The translations under genes and the position numbers were made by a program. The notes beneath the pieces were generated by a model. It had not been told where the DNA came from. It saw only the letters and a list, made by a program, of their open reading frames with translations, and did not search any database. A DNA stretch of 25,736 nt, from IMG/VR virus record IMGVR_UViG_3300001750_000008, positions 1 to 25,736 of that record. The stretch is one strand, 5' to 3'. Positions 1,923-14,284 of the stretch are shown here, one piece after another; the first letter of the stretch is position 1, and every line of letters starts with the position of its first letter. Source of the DNA: a virus.

Positions 1923-3325
1923 TAGTTTGCACTCCAGATTCTGCGAGCATATACGTTGCTACCCACATTCCAGTATAAATATTGGGTTACTTCATTGATC
2001 CCGGTGTTTACTGCAAAAGGATGATTAGCAAAATTATAAACGGCGGGTTGGGTGTATGAAAAACCTCCTGCATTGGTAACCACGACTACAACAGCATAAT
2101 TTTTATCAAGCCCGGTAGGAGCGCTGAGGACTGCGTTTTCAGTCAAAGATAGCGTTCTGAGTGGCCCGGCTGACATATCTAAAGCAACATTACCAGTAGA
2201 AATTGAAAGAGCAGACGATGGCATGGCTTGAGTTTTTGACCACTCATTATTGAGATTCAAAAAACCTGCATTTGAAACAAGGGCTGCTGCATCCGCACTT
2301 CCAAGAACCGTTCGCATGAATGATGTAAGGGTAGTCAATGCCATAGCTGCAGCACCGGTGAAATATGCCAGTTGGTTTGCGGATGGAGATAGGCCGGCCA
2401 GGGCATTTAAAATCGTGCTTGCTTGTTGAGCATCGAGATTTGATCTTGCTGCTGGTGCATCAACACTGCCAAGCAGCGTCCGCATAAATGATGTCAACGA
2501 GGTCAAGGCAACTGCCGCAGCACCGGTAAAATACATCAATCTATCTGCCGATGGAGATAAACCGGATATGGCCGTTAGGATGGCATTGAGTTGTTGAGCG
2601 TCAAGATTTGTTCTCGCTGCTAATGCATCCGCACTGCCGAGCAAAGTTCGCATGAAAGCCGTCAATGATGTCAACGCCATTGCCGCAGCACCGGTGAAAT
2701 ATGCCAGTTGGTTTGCGGATGGAGATAGGCCGGCCAGGGCATTTAAAATCGTGCTTGCCTGCTGTGCATCAAGGTTTGTTCTTGCATCTAAGGCGTTCTC
2801 ATCTTTTAATAGATTCTGCATAAAAGCACTTACAAGCAGGCCACCAGCCGAATATACATCGATTGTTTCAAGTCCATCCCCTGCGGCGTTAAATCTTACA
2901 AGATGCAATGGAACTGGATCGGGAAAATCAAAATTTGAATACACTGATGTTAAAGCAAATTTTATTGCCCTTCCAAAGGTCTCAGCAACCTCCTGATCCT
3001 TGAATGTGAGTTTATCGAATCCGCTTTCAACCAGCTCGGCGTCAAAGTCATGTGAATTGAGAAGATTCAAAAGCTGGTCGGATGGTGTTACCCGGGTAAT
3101 ATGCAGTTTCTCAGTTGATGAAGGTGCCGTATCCATAACGACTTCATCATTAACCACATTATAATCAACGCCTAATGTCTGGAGCGTTTTCCCACCCGTG
3201 ACGGTATCAATCAGGTTAACAACCAGGTCGCCGGAAGCTATATAGTCAAAAGTCACAGGGAAGTTTGTAGTACTTCCATTTCCTGTGTATAATTCAGGAG
3301 TAAAGCTTTGCGCCGTGACACTCAT
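1922..3325 (-). CDS. Tail fibre protein with T7 gp17-type N-terminal anchor and three 56-residue repeats
   Basis: The product has 467 residues. Residues about 1-140 have the phage T7-type tail-fibre N-terminal pattern (YTGNGSTTNFPVTFDYI, then a beta-rich segment with LGVDYNV and ITRVTP), known to attach fibres to the tail adaptor/nozzle. Residues 168-335 are three tandem 56-residue repeats (FMRTLLGSAD, ARTNLDAQQ, GLSPSA, YFTGAAAMALTSLTS) plus a fourth partial copy to about 354, probably a trimeric shaft. The C-terminal 110 residues are beta-rich (NYAVVVVVTNAGGFSYTQ) and end in IWSAN. The ATG follows the upstream stop directly (TAAATG) with an AAGGAG Shine-Dalgarno. The stop overlaps the next fibre gene. 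No intramolecular chaperone or enzymatic motif is visible, so the adjacent lectin-like protein may supply most receptor contact. Confidence 0.85.
   Translation of the reverse strand: MSVTAQSFTPELYTGNGSTTNFPVTFDYIASGDLVVNLIDTVTGGKTLQTLGVDYNVVNDEVVMDTAPSSTEKLHITRVTPSDQLLNLLNSHDFDAELVESGFDKLTFKDQEVAETFGRAIKFALTSVYSNFDFPDPVPLHLVRFNAAGDGLETIDVYSAGGLLVSAFMQNLLKDENALDARTNLDAQQASTILNALAGLSPSANQLAYFTGAAAMALTSLTAFMRTLLGSADALAARTNLDAQQLNAILTAISGLSPSADRLMYFTGAAAVALTSLTSFMRTLLGSVDAPAARSNLDAQQASTILNALAGLSPSANQLAYFTGAAAMALTTLTSFMRTVLGSADAAALVSNAGFLNLNNEWSKTQAMPSSALSISTGNVALDMSAGPLRTLSLTENAVLSAPTGLDKNYAVVVVVTNAGGFSYTQPAVYNFANHPFAVNTGINEVTQYLYWNVGSNVYARRIWSAN
2264..2824 (-). repeat. 168-bp tandem repeat, 3 copies plus partial, in the tail fibre gene
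   Basis: Copy 1 is 2824-2657, copy 2 is 2656-2489, copy 3 is 2488-2321 and a partial fourth is 2320-2264. Each unit codes 56 residues and keeps the frame. Copies 1 and 3 share an uninterrupted identical stretch of 74 bp (2685-2758 and 2349-2422, exactly 336 bp apart), whereas the middle copy has diverged. Confidence 0.93.
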
Positions 3326-6300
3326 TTATCTTCTCCTTGATCTTTTCTGTTCGCTGAAAAACAACCTTGAAAAATCCTCGGTTTCACCGGTCATCAAATC
3401 AATCATACCATCCACAGTAATGATAAGCTGGTTTGATGGTAATCCCCACCAGTAACCGATTACTTTCGTGGCCGGTTTTATAATTTTGCCTAATTCTTTT
3501 TCTTCGGCCCAAATAGCCTTATTCAGTCTTTTGATTTCCTCTCCAAATCCCACGGCCGGACTCATTGTATACCCATAATCTTTGATCATCCCGGAAACTA
3601 TATCACGCACAAACGGCAAACCGCCGGTACCGTACGATACAAGGTCTTTCCACCATTCATCATCTTCCGGTAATCTTCGCCGGTTTATGATGCCGCCGAG
3701 TATGGACGGGAATATCAGTATCCACCAATAGGCTTTCATTGCCTGTAATGTATTGATGTTTCCAAGCCGATACATCTGTGCTGTCTTCATCATTTGATTT
3801 TGAAACACTGAAAAAAACGTGTAGAACATCGTAAACAGTTTTTTCAATTCACCGCCTCTTTGAATCCCGGCCAGGTCTTTAGGTGATGCTGCGGGCTGTG
3901 TTTGCCGAACCAGTTTGTCCGCGTGATCCACGGCTTTATCTTGATTATTATTATACCGGTCCATACCTTCCTGATATCCTGCCAACCAGGTCGGCATGGT
4001 CGCCACTGCATCCATAAAGCCGATCATACCAAAGAATGCTTCCCGGGCAGTTTCCAAACCCGGTCTATGGGTCGGATCAAATTCTCGGGCAAACTGGGCA
4101 AGCTCACGGTCCCATTGACGCTTCCTGTTACGGATCATGGCTGAATTTTCTTTTATAAACTCTGCCGTTTTTCGTGGATGTGCGTAAAACCTTGACATTG
4201 CCCTTAATGTTCGGCCTAAACCCACTTCTTTAATGGTTTGGGTCAAAGACAGCGCCTGTTTTGCGGCTACAGAGAATTTTGCACCAAGTGCAACCACCGT
4301 TGTTCCCCTGCGGATCCTGCCCAATATTTTTTCAAGATTGCATGTGGGTTCAGGCTTTGGCCGGGCCACATATTTTAACCATGGCATTAGCTGGAGGTAA
4401 TTCTCTTTTCCGATCGTGCCTTCTACCATGTGCCGGTACACCTTATCGGCAATAATTTGCTGCGCGTTTCTGATCGGGATTTGATGAGAAATATTGTGCA
4501 CCACATCAGTAACGTGTTTTGCAATGGTAGAAAATTTAAGCAGGGGCGGTAATTTTCCGCCTTTCCTTGCTTTCATATGCCCGGCTTCCACTTTTGGCCG
4601 TGTATATGCTGACGCACTGTGATCCAACATATCCTTTTCAGAGGCGTGCTTTGCCACCAAGAAGGACAATTCCCGATCGAAAATTAAAGGAAAATAATTC
4701 CCTCCCACCTTTTTCAGATCCACACCGGTCAGATCTTTATGTACCGTGTTTAATTCCGGGTATAATTCATCAATAATATTCCATATGTTAATAACGAGCT
4801 GCCGTTCATCTTCATTCAGGGTATTCACGATTTCCTGTATCTGCTGATCTTCCCATCCGTACCCTGCCCGTAATGCTTTCAGGTTTCCTTCATTTCCTGA
4901 GTTTAAGGCAACCATGACCACTTCTTCTTTCGTCAACGGTTTTTTCATCCAGGGCAGACGGATTTTTTCAAAAGCCCACTTTCGGTTAAAACCTTTAAAG
5001 GCAGTACGAAGCTTTTTCCATACATCTTCGCCTAATTTAAACTCATGGTCTTCCGCTTTTTTGATCCATTGGAAAATTTGATAATTGGGACCGTCATCTT
5101 TCCACCCATCCAGCCATTGAAAAAGAAATTCAGCTTTTCTGAGTTGTGCCAGAAATTCCTTTGAACCCTGGCTCATCGATTGCCACCATCCCATCTTCCG
5201 TTGAGACGGAGTTTCAATATCTTCGGATATGCCGGCACTACCATGGACCTCGTACCCGCGTTTAGTCATTTCACCGATCGTCGATCTCAATTCCCGTTCT
5301 TTTTCAGCTTTGATCAACTTGCCTTCAGTTCTACCCATATGAGCCAGCATGTCTGCAATATCCGCAACGATTTGCCTTTCATCCGGTGTAAGAGGTTTGC
5401 GAAAGCCCTTAATATTTCTCATTTGTACCGGCCGCATGGTAAGTAGGTCTTTTATGGTATCAACAGTCCATTCATTATTTTCATATCGTTGCTCTAAGAA
5501 TGCCTCCAGGTTCTTTTCGGGAGTAACCTGAAACGACGGTGGGACATAATAATACTCCTGGAGAAAATGTGTGATCTGCTCTCTATATTCCGGAGGTATG
5601 GACTTTGACCGCATGTATCTGTTCATACGGTTATCGATGATAGTCTTTTTTCTCTGTTCCTTGATATTTCCCCGGATCTTCCGGACCCTCTCTCGTTGCT
5701 GTTCCCTCAATTTCAGTGTTTTTTCCAAGGCCCCTTCTTTCTTACCCTCACGGAAGGCTTTACGGGCTAAAATCTCATCATGTTTAAAATCCTGAACGAG
5801 TTTCCGATAATCTTCATCCTTGATCTGTCCAGTCTGCTCTCGGATGGTCTTTTTAAGATCTTTTCGCGCTTTCGACTTTTTCTTTCCGAGCATCTGGTTG
5901 AGGATATTGATTTCTTCATCAATGATTTCCTGGTACGATTCTGCATTCTCGTAATCGAGGCCACGCTCATATTCCATCCAGAGATCGTCATTGTATCTTT
6001 GTATGGCTTCCTTTTTTGTGGGATGATTAAGGATGTCCTGGATTAATTCATCCGTATTATAATAGTTGTATTGAGTGGCGAAGAAGTCTGCATTTAAACC
6101 GTTCTCAGATATGAGTCCTGGCATTCTGGAAATAAGATCTCTAATATGATCCTTATCGTAAAGATCGTACAGGTCTGACAGCTTCAATCCTCCGGAAGCT
6201 TTCAAATCATCCATCATCAAATAAAAACCATCATTCTGAATTGAGTCTATGGCCTCTTTAAGGAATGCAGCTTTAAGTTTTTTCTCATCCTTCTTGCGCT

Positions 6301-9300
6301 TTTGAGCAATGCTGCCCAGTACACGCTTTCTGGCTTCGACAACTATCTGATCATATTCGTGTACACTGGCAGGATCGATGCCCCGGATTTCGTGTTCATT
6401 GATTTTTGACTGTTCATCTATTTCCAGATCACCCGCTTTAATCCACTCATTAATATCGGCAAAGGGATCCGCTTGCCGCTCGATTTCCGTGGACACCCAT
6501 CGATCAAATATAGATCTGACAGAATCATTCAGCTGGATGTCAAGATTTTGGATCGACTGATATATATCGATCAGCCACTCTTTCATTTTTTTAAATACAT
6601 CCTGGAGACGTGAGGTGGGCGCCTTTCCTTCCATACAATAGGCTTCAAAGGCTATGGCTGATTTTTCCCGTTCTGATTTAGACCATGCGGATAAACCTAT
6701 TTCCGCACGATCCGGATCAACGCCCGCGAATTCGGCAAGGGTATAATAATCCGCATGTTTTTGCTGATATAACAGATCGGTGATGATATGGCCGAGCTCA
6801 TGTATCGGGGTTGATACGTCGGCAGACTCAAAAGCATGAATGATCTTTGGTATGTTTTTATGTAGGTTTTCAATGGCCCCGCGAGGTGGCGCGGAGTCCT
6901 GATATAGAATATCGTCGTCTTCGTCTACAGACCGAGGTTTAGAACTTCCTCCCAGGAGAGTCTCAGAAGTGCCTGGTTCTTTTTCACCCAATCCAAGCCT
7001 CTTTTCTGTACTCTCTTTTCTGTCCAGTCTATCAGGGTCAGCAGTTCTTCTTCGGTCCCCGGTGGTCTTTCTTTGTAACCGAGAACTTTCGTAATGTCTT
7101 CTAATGTCATCGGCATTTCGTGTGCCTCCTTCATAGCGCATGTATACAACGTCTGGTTCTCCGAATTTATCATAATCCCACTTTTCTGGTGCGTACTCAT
7201 CATTCCATGCATCCCGCTTAACTTCCTTGAAACCAAAACGTTCGTAATATTCAGCTAAAAAGCCATCATAACAATCAAGGGTTTCACCCCCGTTGACAAT
7301 AGCAGCAATTACCGCTTCAGCACCGGCGCCACGTTGTTCGCTATTGTTGAATACATTTACAACATCATTTTCAGGAGTCAGAGCATATCCAACCGTTCCG
7401 TCCTCGGTTGTGAATGTCTTGAAGTTAGAAAGTTCCTCATCAGAATACCGGTATAGAAAATCAGGCCGAGTAGTATTATCAAGTGCCTTGTTAAATGAGG
7501 ATGGATCGGTTTCAACAAATTGAGGCTTTACTTCTTGGCTTTTTTCTTCAACCGCTTTTCGAGAGAATTCATTAGAGTCTTGATATTCCGCATCTCTCGG
7601 AGCTTCCTTTTCAATTCTTTTCTTTTCTCTTTTTCTGAGCTGCTCACTGCCTAATGCCTCCTGCTTTCTCTTATTATAAGCCTGCACTAATTCATTGTAA
7701 AGCAGTTTTTCATCAAATTCTATCTCCCCTTTTAACCATTTTTTGGCTATGGTTTTAGCAGAGTTCTGAGTTTTATTTTTAATGGCATCGATGATTTCAA
7801 GCCCTTCGCGGAAGGACTGCTTTGCTGCAGCAAGATCCAGCATTTTCTGATGATCATTATCTTTATGGGCTTCTTCATATTCTTCGTTTAATGTTTCCCT
7901 GGCTTCACTCATGGAGACCTGGAGGCTGTCATTATCCAGGGCCTTAATTCCTAACTCATAACCGAATTGTGTGATTTGTCGCGTATTCTTGGCAGAATCA
8001 ACCAGGATTTGAACCACATCGGGAGCAGATAAAATGGTGTCAATGTCCACGGCACCTTTTGCCGCCTGCATCACTGCGGACTGAAACTGCTCTGCGGTTC
8101 CGGTTTCAAATCCGCCGATTACATCGGTATAAAATTCTTCCGGGCTTTTTCCATTCCTTTCGGCCCATGACCGGGCAACACCGTCAAACAAATCCTGTTG
8201 TGTTTCCACTTCTTCATCAGAATATCTCTTTTTCATCGAGTCAAAGAATTGTTCCCGGGATTCACTTTCAATCGGTTTTTGAAGATCGATCCGCCTTTTA
8301 ACGGTTTCCACAACAGTATCGATGTCAACCATTTCATCGATATGTTTTATTTTTTCTATTAGCTCATTTTGGTTGATATTTTTTTCATGAACGTGACTTT
8401 TAACTGATTCATTTAAGGCATCTTCCTCGGACACGCCCTGCTCCACCATGTTACCGACCTTGACATCTATCGCAGTTTTTTCTTGAGCCGGTAAAGATTC
8501 ATAGATTTGTTTTACTTGTTCATCTTCAGATTGTTGCGCCTTGCTGTCCGCGTACATTTTACCTGCACTGGTCAACCCACCAAACCACATAGCCAGGCTC
8601 CCTTCATACCAGCCCTCTTTGGTTGCCTGCCAGAAACCCTCGATTACTTTTTTAAATCTTTGATCAATGGATTCACCAGGTGTTTTTGCCCATACTTCGG
8701 TGATAAGCTCCGGGTATTTTTGAAACCACTCTGTAATAAATTCCGCCACCATTGCAGAGCCGACATCTTTGATTACTTTTGTTACAGTCCGGCCCGGCTT
8801 AAAAAACCTCAATGCCTTGCCCAAACCAAACGCCTCAAGGGGGGCTTCCATGATTCCAGCCGCAATGCTTGATTTAAAAGCTCGCGCTGGTTCCACTCCC
8901 TCTTTAATCAACTTCTCATATTGTCCGCCGGCGATCTGTGTACCCATGAAGAACATACCGCTGGCGGGACCACCAATCAGAGTGGTGACTATCTGAGCGA
9001 GAGCCTGCGGAATCATCTGGACAAAATCTTCACCGTATCGAACAAAACCGGATTTATGTTTTCTCGATTCCAGATAAGCTTTGTCAGGTTTGATTGTTTC
9101 GGATTCTATAACTTTTTCATGCCATGATTTTTCGTGTGGTTTTCTCTGGTTGACGAATGGGTCATGGAGCTCAGAAAATACCCGTTTGATTTCCTCCAGC
9201 TCTGACCTTGAATATGTCCCTTCCGCCTTTAACTCTGAATACATCTCGGCCATGTCTTTCTGATATTTATCCGCCCAGGCTTTATTCTCCCAGGCAGCAG

Positions 9301-11702: not shown

Positions 11703-14284
11703 TACGGCACCTCCAATACCGGCACAATGGCAAGTACTGTAAGGGGCAAGGGCAGTTCCTGCCTGATGCAAATATTTCCATCATATTCAAAATCAGCATC
11801 AAAGCCTAACCGCCGTTCGCCTGTAAAAAGCGGCAGGGGTTCTCCCATAAGATCATCCGATGACCTCATAAATTCCTCACCCAGGCTGTCAAAGCTGTCC
11901 CCGTATTTAAAGCCCAGGGATTTATGCAGGTTTACGGTTAAATCAATAATTCTCTTTTTCTTTCCTTTTATGGTTCCCTGTTCAGGACCCAATGTGATCG
12001 GCAGGGTTTGAACGTCGGTATTATATTTAAGTCCGATGTGTGCTTTTCGGGTTCGACGTTCAAGAGTAATGGATCCGCTCGAAACTGTGAGTGGCGGATG
12101 GACACTGCCATCGGCCAATATCTGCACCTCTCGACCTTCAAGATGATCAAGTCCGGAAATCGTCTGGGCCATCTGCTGTATCTTTCCGCCACCGGTGTAA
12201 ACAGTGAACCCGGTGCCATCAATGTTATTTCCGTTCTCATCCTGCAGCTCAAAAGTATTGGCTGTTACATTGGCAATTTTATATGTGATTCCGTTTAATT
12301 CGGTCATGCTCTGGCTGATACCGGCCTGGGCATCCGCTTCCGGCATTCGATCGATATACCCATACTTACCGTTAGTTAAGCCGTGGCCAGTAGCGGTGAT
12401 CACAACCGGATTCGCCTGCGTGGCTCCTTCAACGTCCATTTCATTATGGAACGTAAGCCCTGAGTCCACATAGAAAGCGTCCCTTGCAGTGTTGGAGGTA
12501 AAAGGCGGTGCCATCCGTTCTATATATCTTTTATAGGTTCCGTTTATGGCCCGCCTTACCGCCAGCCACAATTCATCATTCCCATCAATTCCCGGGATGG
12601 TCGCGATAGCCTCAACCTTGCCATCGGTAATATGCCTGTGCCAGCCCATGACTTCATGAGCTTTCATGTATGTAAGACCAAGCAAAACCCCATCATCCCG
12701 GACACTCCATACAATCCGGTGAGGCATCTGCTGATATGTTAACTGCTTTAATGTATTGTTTTCGGTCAGGTGTGTAGCCAGTACCAGTAATTCTTCACTC
12801 TGATACCCGTCGGTTTCATAGGCATACACACACTCCATAAGGTTCTTACCGCCTCTCTGGACAAAAAGAATTGTGTTACCCACAACAACAGGTATGATGG
12901 GTTCAGAACCATATGCGGATTGTGGTTTGACATCTACTTTTGTGGGTGTAATCGGTTCGGAATCTGTAGCGCCGGACATGGCCCATTCTCCGCCTGCAGT
13001 ACCGATGATCAGTTTTCGAAGGGACACCAGCCAGCGTCCAACATCGACCGTGTTGGACGCTAAAATAAACGTGCATGCGTCATCATCCTTAAGAGGATAA
13101 CTGATGTTAAAGTTTTTAAACCCGGCTGACTGACTGAGAAATATGGCCTGTGGCTTATTCAGGGTACACATGGTGGCCAGGCGTTCCTCGTGAAACGTAA
13201 TGCATGACGGATAATTGCCAGCGCCTTGAAATGGATTGCGATACGCCGGCGGCACATCATTCACGTTCGGAACAATGCTGCCGTCATCTTTGAATTGCTC
13301 AGTATCTGCCCGGGCCAGATAACCGTATGTACCCGCCTTTTCACGGTATACATAATAATGAGAGACTCCGGCCACTTTGTCCCAGGAAAGATTAACATAA
13401 TTGCTGGCATTCAAAGCGGCTGCAGCGCTGATCCTGTGTATCTGTGTTGATTTACCGCCACTTGTATAAGCGGTATATGCTGTGCCATTAATCCCGGAGA
13501 GCTCATAGGTATTTGCTGTTTTATTTGCAGCCGTGTATTCATTGCCATTGAGCTCGGTCATGCCCAGCACATCCTCAATTAGAATAACCTCCCCATTTTC
13601 ATAGGGATGACCATTATCGGTGATGACAACGGGATTTGTCTGAGTAGCCCCCGAAATATTTCCGCTTTTGCCGCCAGGGTTACTTTCTTCATAGGTATCT
13701 GCATCGACAGCCGTGATTTTATACCTGTAATTCGTGCCTGTAGTTCCGGTTTGAGTAAGAGCAATGTTTTCAGGCGAGCCAGTCAACGGTCCGATTTCCA
13801 ATGCCTGAATGTTCCAGGATGTGTGTCCGGATCGCGTCAGCTCTTGGATTGGCCAGTTGGGATGAACAAGAAACATGGTGTCTGCGGATTGGGTGTATTG
13901 AATCATTGGAAATTCATCCGCTTTCCACGGTATGACAACACCGCTCACACCGTTTACAAGTTCATAGGGACTACCCCCGTCATAGATTCGCCCGCCATCC
14001 ATATAGAAACGAAGATATCCGTCACCCCCCGGGGTTTCTCCCAATTCCAGCATGTAAGCTTGAGTCACTGAAAACTCGAAAGGTATCAATCTGACTTTCT
14101 TACCGGAATTTTTAGCTTCACCGATAAATTCTAATCCCGGTCGCCGGGTCAGTCCGCCCTGGGGATACAGCACGGCATTGACCAGGGTTTTCAGACCTGA
14201 TGAATACTTGGCAAGGTCCACCCGGCCGATCATGACCGGCGATAATTCACCGGCATTAAATGATTTTTGAATGGTTGTTGTCAT
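11702..14284 (-). CDS. Tail tubular protein B / nozzle (T7 gp12-like) with two FCCH-like insertions, 860 aa
   Basis: The N-terminus IQKSFNAGELSPVMIGRVDLAKYSSGL followed by NAVLYPQGGLTRRPGLEFI is the signature of phage nozzle proteins of the T7 gp12 type, which form the distal end of the short tail and hold the fibres. Length (about 800-900) fits. Two related segments, at about 212-280 and 620-703, carry ATQTNPVVIT.NGH, MTELNG..Y, ANTYEL/ANTFEL and YT(S/G)GGK; they resemble the E1 FCCH-type beta module often inserted in these proteins. The gene starts in an ATGA overlap with the adaptor gene and ends in a TAATG overlap with the gp14-like gene. Confidence 0.88.
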   Translation of the reverse strand: MTTTIQKSFNAGELSPVMIGRVDLAKYSSGLKTLVNAVLYPQGGLTRRPGLEFIGEAKNSGKKVRLIPFEFSVTQAYMLELGETPGGDGYLRFYMDGGRIYDGGSPYELVNGVSGVVIPWKADEFPMIQYTQSADTMFLVHPNWPIQELTRSGHTSWNIQALEIGPLTGSPENIALTQTGTTGTNYRYKITAVDADTYEESNPGGKSGNISGATQTNPVVITDNGHPYENGEVILIEDVLGMTELNGNEYTAANKTANTYELSGINGTAYTAYTSGGKSTQIHRISAAAALNASNYVNLSWDKVAGVSHYYVYREKAGTYGYLARADTEQFKDDGSIVPNVNDVPPAYRNPFQGAGNYPSCITFHEERLATMCTLNKPQAIFLSQSAGFKNFNISYPLKDDDACTFILASNTVDVGRWLVSLRKLIIGTAGGEWAMSGATDSEPITPTKVDVKPQSAYGSEPIIPVVVGNTILFVQRGGKNLMECVYAYETDGYQSEELLVLATHLTENNTLKQLTYQQMPHRIVWSVRDDGVLLGLTYMKAHEVMGWHRHITDGKVEAIATIPGIDGNDELWLAVRRAINGTYKRYIERMAPPFTSNTARDAFYVDSGLTFHNEMDVEGATQANPVVITATGHGLTNGKYGYIDRMPEADAQAGISQSMTELNGITYKIANVTANTFELQDENGNNIDGTGFTVYTGGGKIQQMAQTISGLDHLEGREVQILADGSVHPPLTVSSGSITLERRTRKAHIGLKYNTDVQTLPITLGPEQGTIKGKKKRIIDLTVNLHKSLGFKYGDSFDSLGEEFMRSSDDLMGEPLPLFTGERRLGFDADFEYDGNICIRQELPLPLTVLAIVPVLEVP

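Follow-up and report, generated by a model that had tools for sequence, protein, structure and literature searches.

A putative small phage gene nested out of frame at a module junction of a giant polyvalent-protein gene, with relatives at the same junction in other viruses

Introduction

Can the DNA that encodes a linker between two modules of a giant phage protein also encode, in another reading frame, a small protein that is translated in its own right? This question is raised by a virus sequence from IMG/VR (record IMGVR_UViG_3300001750_000008, positions 1 to 25,736), the whole stretch of which, 25,736 nucleotides in length, is referred to here as the window. An original prediction, made from the sequence alone, held that an out-of-frame gene of 63 codons is nested in a giant gene of this virus. 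To our knowledge, most nested genes reported in tailed phages are isolated examples, lysis genes above all. Rz1 is nested in the +1 frame. Standard annotation, and gene callers that forbid overlaps, miss such genes. The classic nested phage gene is Rz1 within Rz, the spanins of phage lambda (PMC5295617, PMC6139136).

The giant gene and the module junction

The features of the locus are listed in Table 1. The product of the giant gene had been named an ejection protein; it is better described as a polyvalent protein of the phrog_9880 type with GNAT and metallopeptidase modules, and its delivery into the host is plausible. Iyer et al. 2017 (PMC5512222) described GNAT, ART and metallopeptidase (MPTase) modules among those of polyvalent proteins. 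The family to which the acetyltransferase module of the window was assigned, phrog_2563, is GNAT-like, and an AlphaFold model of a relative (L033; L-numbers denote viral loci) matches solved acetyltransferases.

Table 1. Coordinates of the features of the nested locus in the window.
Feature	Positions	Strand	Remarks
Giant host gene, polyvalent protein, 2034 aa	3326..9430	minus	phrog_9880, E 4e-145, residues 324-2018
GNAT-like acetyltransferase module, host residues about 646-766	7133..7495	minus	phrog_2563, E 3e-17
Shine-Dalgarno GAAGGAGG	7125..7132	minus	8 nt ahead of ATG; doubles as host-protein Y-E-G-G codons
Nested ORF, 63 codons + stop	6925..7116	minus	+1 frame relative to giant gene
Host-frame linker, GNAT to metallopeptidase module, overlapped by nested ORF	6866..7132	minus	codon score at 8th percentile
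HELGH zinc motif of next module, metallopeptidase-like	6788..6802	minus	sequence

Of the annotated relatives of the giant protein, the nearest is that of vir555 (BK063671; host given as Methanomicrobiales), in which the GNAT module and the linker are absent. At one and the same site of the giant gene, the window has the GNAT module (7133-7495, minus strand) and vir555 has an ART-like module (L003, about 13000-13700), the downstream sides being similar; the junction is therefore a site of module exchange. The 3′ end of the exchanged GNAT module is precisely where the nested ORF sits. A giant gene closely related to that of the window and also carrying the GNAT module was not found.

The nested reading frame in the window

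The nested ORF, MPMTLEDITKVLGYKERPPGTEEELLTLIDWTEKRVQKRGLDWVKKNQALLRLSWEEVLNLGL, reads on the minus strand from an ATG at 7116-7114 to a TAG stop at 6927-6925. The full AAGGAGG ribosome site on which the original prediction was built is present on that strand at 7131-7125, 8 nt upstream of the ATG; the host-frame sequence in this region, RNADDIRRHYESSRLQRKTTGDRRRTADPDRLDRKESTEKRLGLGEKEPGTSETLLGGSSK, is the charged, low-complexity linker that had been described, and the giant gene itself, for which a weaker ribosome site had been claimed, has no clear Shine-Dalgarno (SD) sequence. The SD of the nested ORF has a duplex energy of -11.0 kcal/mol, and the best SD score of its start zone was matched by none of 90 control windows. 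AAGGAG-like sites also stand upstream of several ordinary genes of the window. In part, this SD is to be expected, because the host residues Y-E-G-G spell GAAGGAGG. When the giant gene was shuffled synonymously 2000 times with its protein preserved, 8% of the shuffles yielded an out-of-frame ORF of at least 60 aa with an ATG and a 6-nt SD, and the +1 frame remained open in 26% of local codon resamplings. Taken alone, the SD, the ATG and the ORF length in the window are weak evidence, hardly beyond chance. The ribosome site itself is present, but as the sole argument for a gene it does not suffice, about 8% of synonymous shuffles doing equally well.

The window ORF stands apart from chance because of its codon usage. 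Scored with codon frequencies taken from the window's other genes, the nested frame minus the host frame came to +0.24 bit per codon, compared with -0.68 ± 0.22 (sd) over 2156 control windows. In none of these (0/2156, a count that is no strict probability, since the control windows overlap) did the frame corresponding to the nested one beat the host frame, and zero was never reached. Relative to real coding windows, the host frame lies at the 8th percentile and the nested frame at the 71st.

The model of the 63-aa protein has a pLDDT of 77 and predicted helices at residues 22-39, 41-46 and 48-61; as read from its sequence, the protein has neither a signal peptide nor a lipobox. A protein search with this product, suggested together with the prediction, gave no direct homologue in the databases covered: none was found in phages, plasmids or viral contigs, and there was no match in Pfam, NCBIfam or solved structures. 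A fold search with the model also returned nothing. Two matches were rejected, phrog_24097 (E 0.029) being not specific and a Microbacterium “DNA binding protein” (E 2) being chance-like. Viral loci were then collected through the GNAT module, because the 63-aa protein itself had yielded no homologue.

A family of small genes after GNAT modules

In many viral loci, a small +1 ORF follows directly after the GNAT module, with the GNAT frame still open. A survey without hand selection covered 82 non-redundant viral GNAT loci, in each of which the host frame stays open for 110 or more further codons. At the GNAT junction, a +1 ORF of at least 45 aa with a codon score above that of the host frame was present in 37 of the 82 loci, compared with 128 of 3047 positions (4.2%) elsewhere in the same ORFs and with none of the 82 loci when the +2 frame was read at the junction. 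The nested codon score exceeded the host score in 20/21 examined loci; the nested ORFs of L071 and L183 failed the codon test.

Beyond the nested gene, the host frame runs on, in the same frame, into a MuF domain (L017), an ADP-ribosyltransferase (L019) or a NUDIX domain with a head-protease block (L024), and in L071 into a metallopeptidase, judged by its HENGH motif. Most of the downstream modules have no start codon near the junction. By all appearances, the host frame really is translated through the nested region.

Many members of the small +1 family end in ..LEQARxLGxL. The window ORF has the traits of the family, i.e., it lies directly after a GNAT-type module, is in the +1 frame, falls within the length range of about 45-90 aa and is closed within the host ORF. 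Against a profile of 35 members, 15 of 5000 shuffles scored as well as the window ORF, and against another broad profile 11 of 3000 did so; the similarity in sequence is modest (p about 0.003-0.004 with these broad profiles), and the link of the window ORF to the family is of moderate strength. With a subset chosen by hand and after the fact, the members of which have a GxxWV-like motif in common, no shuffle of 5000 scored as well. In its C-terminal pattern of a helix, a 6-residue helix and a further helix, the window protein (22-39, 41-46, 48-61), the model of which is of moderate confidence, resembles the C-terminal domain of L033 (205-218, 220-225, 227-238), which was modelled separately, without its relatives. 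Because position, frame, length and codon signal agree, membership is favoured, and the window ORF probably belongs to this family. The family itself matches no Pfam or PHROG family convincingly. A scan of genome contigs with the family alignment returned nothing, and 14 matches to the C-terminal motif in genome contigs were set aside, as they do not resemble the small +1 family.

Selection on the two frames

The frames were compared in 55 ungapped, stop-anchored pairs of relatives with 60-97% DNA identity. Amino-acid identity was higher in the nested frame than in the host frame in all 55 pairs, which are not mutually independent, the means being 0.56 and 0.35, respectively. Mismatches at nested codon positions 1, 2 and 3 numbered 682, 403 and 918; therefore, the wobble position of the host frame is the least variable. 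A protein-guided alignment of 16 members had the same outcome, and the GNAT module served as the opposite control. At the level of sequence comparison, these patterns show that protein-level selection keeps the nested frame in the relatives, the host frame being a poorly conserved linker.

The pattern had been described as that expected of an overprinted phage gene. A nested gene is indeed what the evidence favours, but the direction of overprinting appears to be the reverse, as the small frame looks older and the linker frame runs over it. The small frame is probably the older of the two, with the giant gene's linker frame as the later arrival. In the ancestral state, a small gene would have overlapped the 3′ end of an effector gene, for instance that for GNAT. 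The effector would have been fused in frame to the next gene, with the fused frame extended across the small gene, and the DNA of the small gene would now serve as an interdomain linker as well.

Start sites and members that are not nested

In the start zones of the family, an ATG was present in 20 of 21 loci (11.4 ± 2.1 expected), and the mean best SD was -6.5, compared with -3.3 in controls; several nested relatives (L045, L103, L098 and L064) have poor SDs. No slippery sequence common to the relatives was seen at the change of frame.

Viral contigs were searched blindly with a DNA motif encoding the last 11 residues and the stop, with one codon position free and the context ignored. The motif matched 18 viral stretches, and all 18 encode the small +1 family; 16 members are nested in the +1 frame of long ORFs (15 of these with GNAT) and two, L203 and L207, are not nested. 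In L203, the small gene is an ordinary gene with its own AAGGAG and ATG, it adjoins the genes for the small and large terminase subunits, and no frame exists upstream from which ribosomes could shift; the small gene resembles the family even without the searched motif. The small gene of L207 overlaps in part with a GNAT gene whose frame ends early. In L102, a small gene is nested (ORF ending at 3126) in a record with no GNAT and precedes a module resembling that of L038. In L033 (3611-4693), a small helical domain is apparently in frame at the C-terminus of the GNAT protein. As an ATG lies internally in that same frame, the small domain may be either fused or re-initiated.

Weighing the explanations

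We consider that the window ORF is a genuine small phage gene, which would be translated from its own ribosome site within the mRNA of the giant gene, and give this reading a probability of about three in four. The nested gene that was originally proposed is supported by codon usage, by dozens of +1 relatives, by conservation of the nested-frame protein and by the members that are not nested. A chance ORF would be in line with the synonymous shuffles (8% with an ATG ORF and an SD) and with the +1 frame remaining open in 26% of resamplings, but it is highly improbable given the codon usage (0/2156 overlapping windows), its place directly behind GNAT and in the +1 frame, as in the family, and the model of a folded protein (pLDDT 77). 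Alternatively, the GNAT module may have been captured together with a downstream small gene that is now silent in this phage, its DNA being kept only as a linker of the giant protein. Such a fossil would agree with the weak similarity of the window ORF to the family and with the intact host frame across the region. Yet the nested frame is also intact and has a near-perfect SD (dG -11.0; 0/90 control windows), it still beats the host frame on codon usage, and its counterparts in the relatives are under protein-level selection, all of which makes a silent remnant unlikely.

A different mode of expression would be a programmed +1 frameshift after GNAT, by which a short product comprising GNAT and the helical domain would be made beside the long polyprotein. 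The shift is always +1, the GNAT protein of L033 ends in the small domain without a change of frame, and a good SD is missing at some nested relatives, as a frameshift would explain. Against this stand the lack of a slippery sequence common to the relatives, the excess of ATG and SD in the start zones, the ordinary gene of L203 with AAGGAG and ATG and without an upstream frame, and the near-perfect SD and ATG that the window ORF has of its own. Frameshifting was dropped on account of the missing common slippery site and of L203, and we regard it as very unlikely. Internal initiation is preferred, because ATG and SD are enriched in the start zones, no common slippery site is seen and the small gene of L203 stands alone, although several members have weak SDs; on this reading, ribosomes would start anew within the giant-gene transcript.

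At two loci, the GNAT residues GGDR are spelled GGAGGTGATC or GGAGGAGATC just before a GTG start in the nested frame (L031, about 1827-1850; L058, about 845-870). The stretch encoding GGDR in these loci is a near-complete complement of the 3′ end of 16S rRNA.

Relation to known systems

The nested gene resembles Rz1 in being a small phage gene inside a larger one, in another frame and with its own start. The spanins, however, are membrane proteins for lysis that work as a single functional unit, and their outer gene is small, whereas the outer gene in the window encodes a giant protein of the head or effector type and its inner product looks soluble and helical, with no lipoprotein signal of the Rz1 kind in its sequence. 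The host gene is of the polyvalent-protein class (PMC5512222), with GNAT beside a metallopeptidase, and vir555 has its ART-like module at the same site; in the text of PMC5512222, the word “overlap” is absent and no nested gene was found described. The MuF polymorphic toxins (PMC5576092) share a head/packaging neighbourhood and the order of an effector domain with a small ORF behind it; in those systems the small ORF lies after the toxin gene, whereas the present family is usually overrun by the host frame and also occurs without an effector. Programmed-frameshift gene pairs of phages (PMC5009743) likewise have two frames in one transcript with a constant shift; the present family differs in having no slippery site that could be seen, its own SD and start, and a stand-alone member.

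No earlier description of a recurrent nested family at this junction was found in the searches made of the openly licensed literature. As far as the tools reach, what is new is such a family at a fixed junction, with the host frame behaving as a later arrival. Across dozens of viruses, the small family is found again in one frame and at one module junction, which suggests a way in which multidomain polyvalent proteins can expand over a gene that is already there. We lean towards a broader reading, in which giant phage proteins would have been built recurrently, by frames fused again and again across an existing small gene, so that the same DNA would be both a linker and a selected, independently translated gene of the head module, belonging to an unannotated family widespread in uncultured tailed phages. 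From this comes a specific list of proteins in head and packaging modules that have so far been overlooked.

Possible function of the small protein

The product may be an accessory protein, soluble and helical, that belongs to the head and packaging module and acts beside the neighbouring effector module. This role is suggested because members adjoin terminase, portal, MuF and head-protease modules and not always GNAT, and it appears to be a more general fit than that of a partner of GNAT. A dedicated partner of GNAT, or an immunity protein like the small ORFs after MuF toxins, is possible by analogy, though doubtful. Most of the nested members found directly follow GNAT, L033 has an in-frame fusion, and a small ORF has been proposed as immunity after 89.4% of MuF toxin genes (PMC5576092). 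The association with GNAT is, however, inflated, because most of the sampling went by GNAT; the nested gene of L102 has no GNAT in its record, the small gene of L203 follows the gene for the small terminase, and many GNAT genes lack the small +1 gene. A strict partnership was dropped on account of L102 and L203, in which no GNAT lies beside the small gene.

Other arrangements were observed at the GNAT loci. In L017 (1407-6221), a single ORF encodes portal, anti-CBASS Acb1, GNAT and MuF domains, and the nested small ORF lies between the last two. A different conserved small gene, with the cysteine motif ..CDxCRHY..CKAF.IP.., begins at the GNAT stop codon in L043 (4297-4521), L051 (4333-4608), L072 (about 4333-4590) and L073 (about 906-1190). 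Another small gene (MTNDERDFVKGCCKFKDYANIEEYVADIQK..) comes after a GNAT gene that ends normally, in L111 (2132-2413), L112 and L114.
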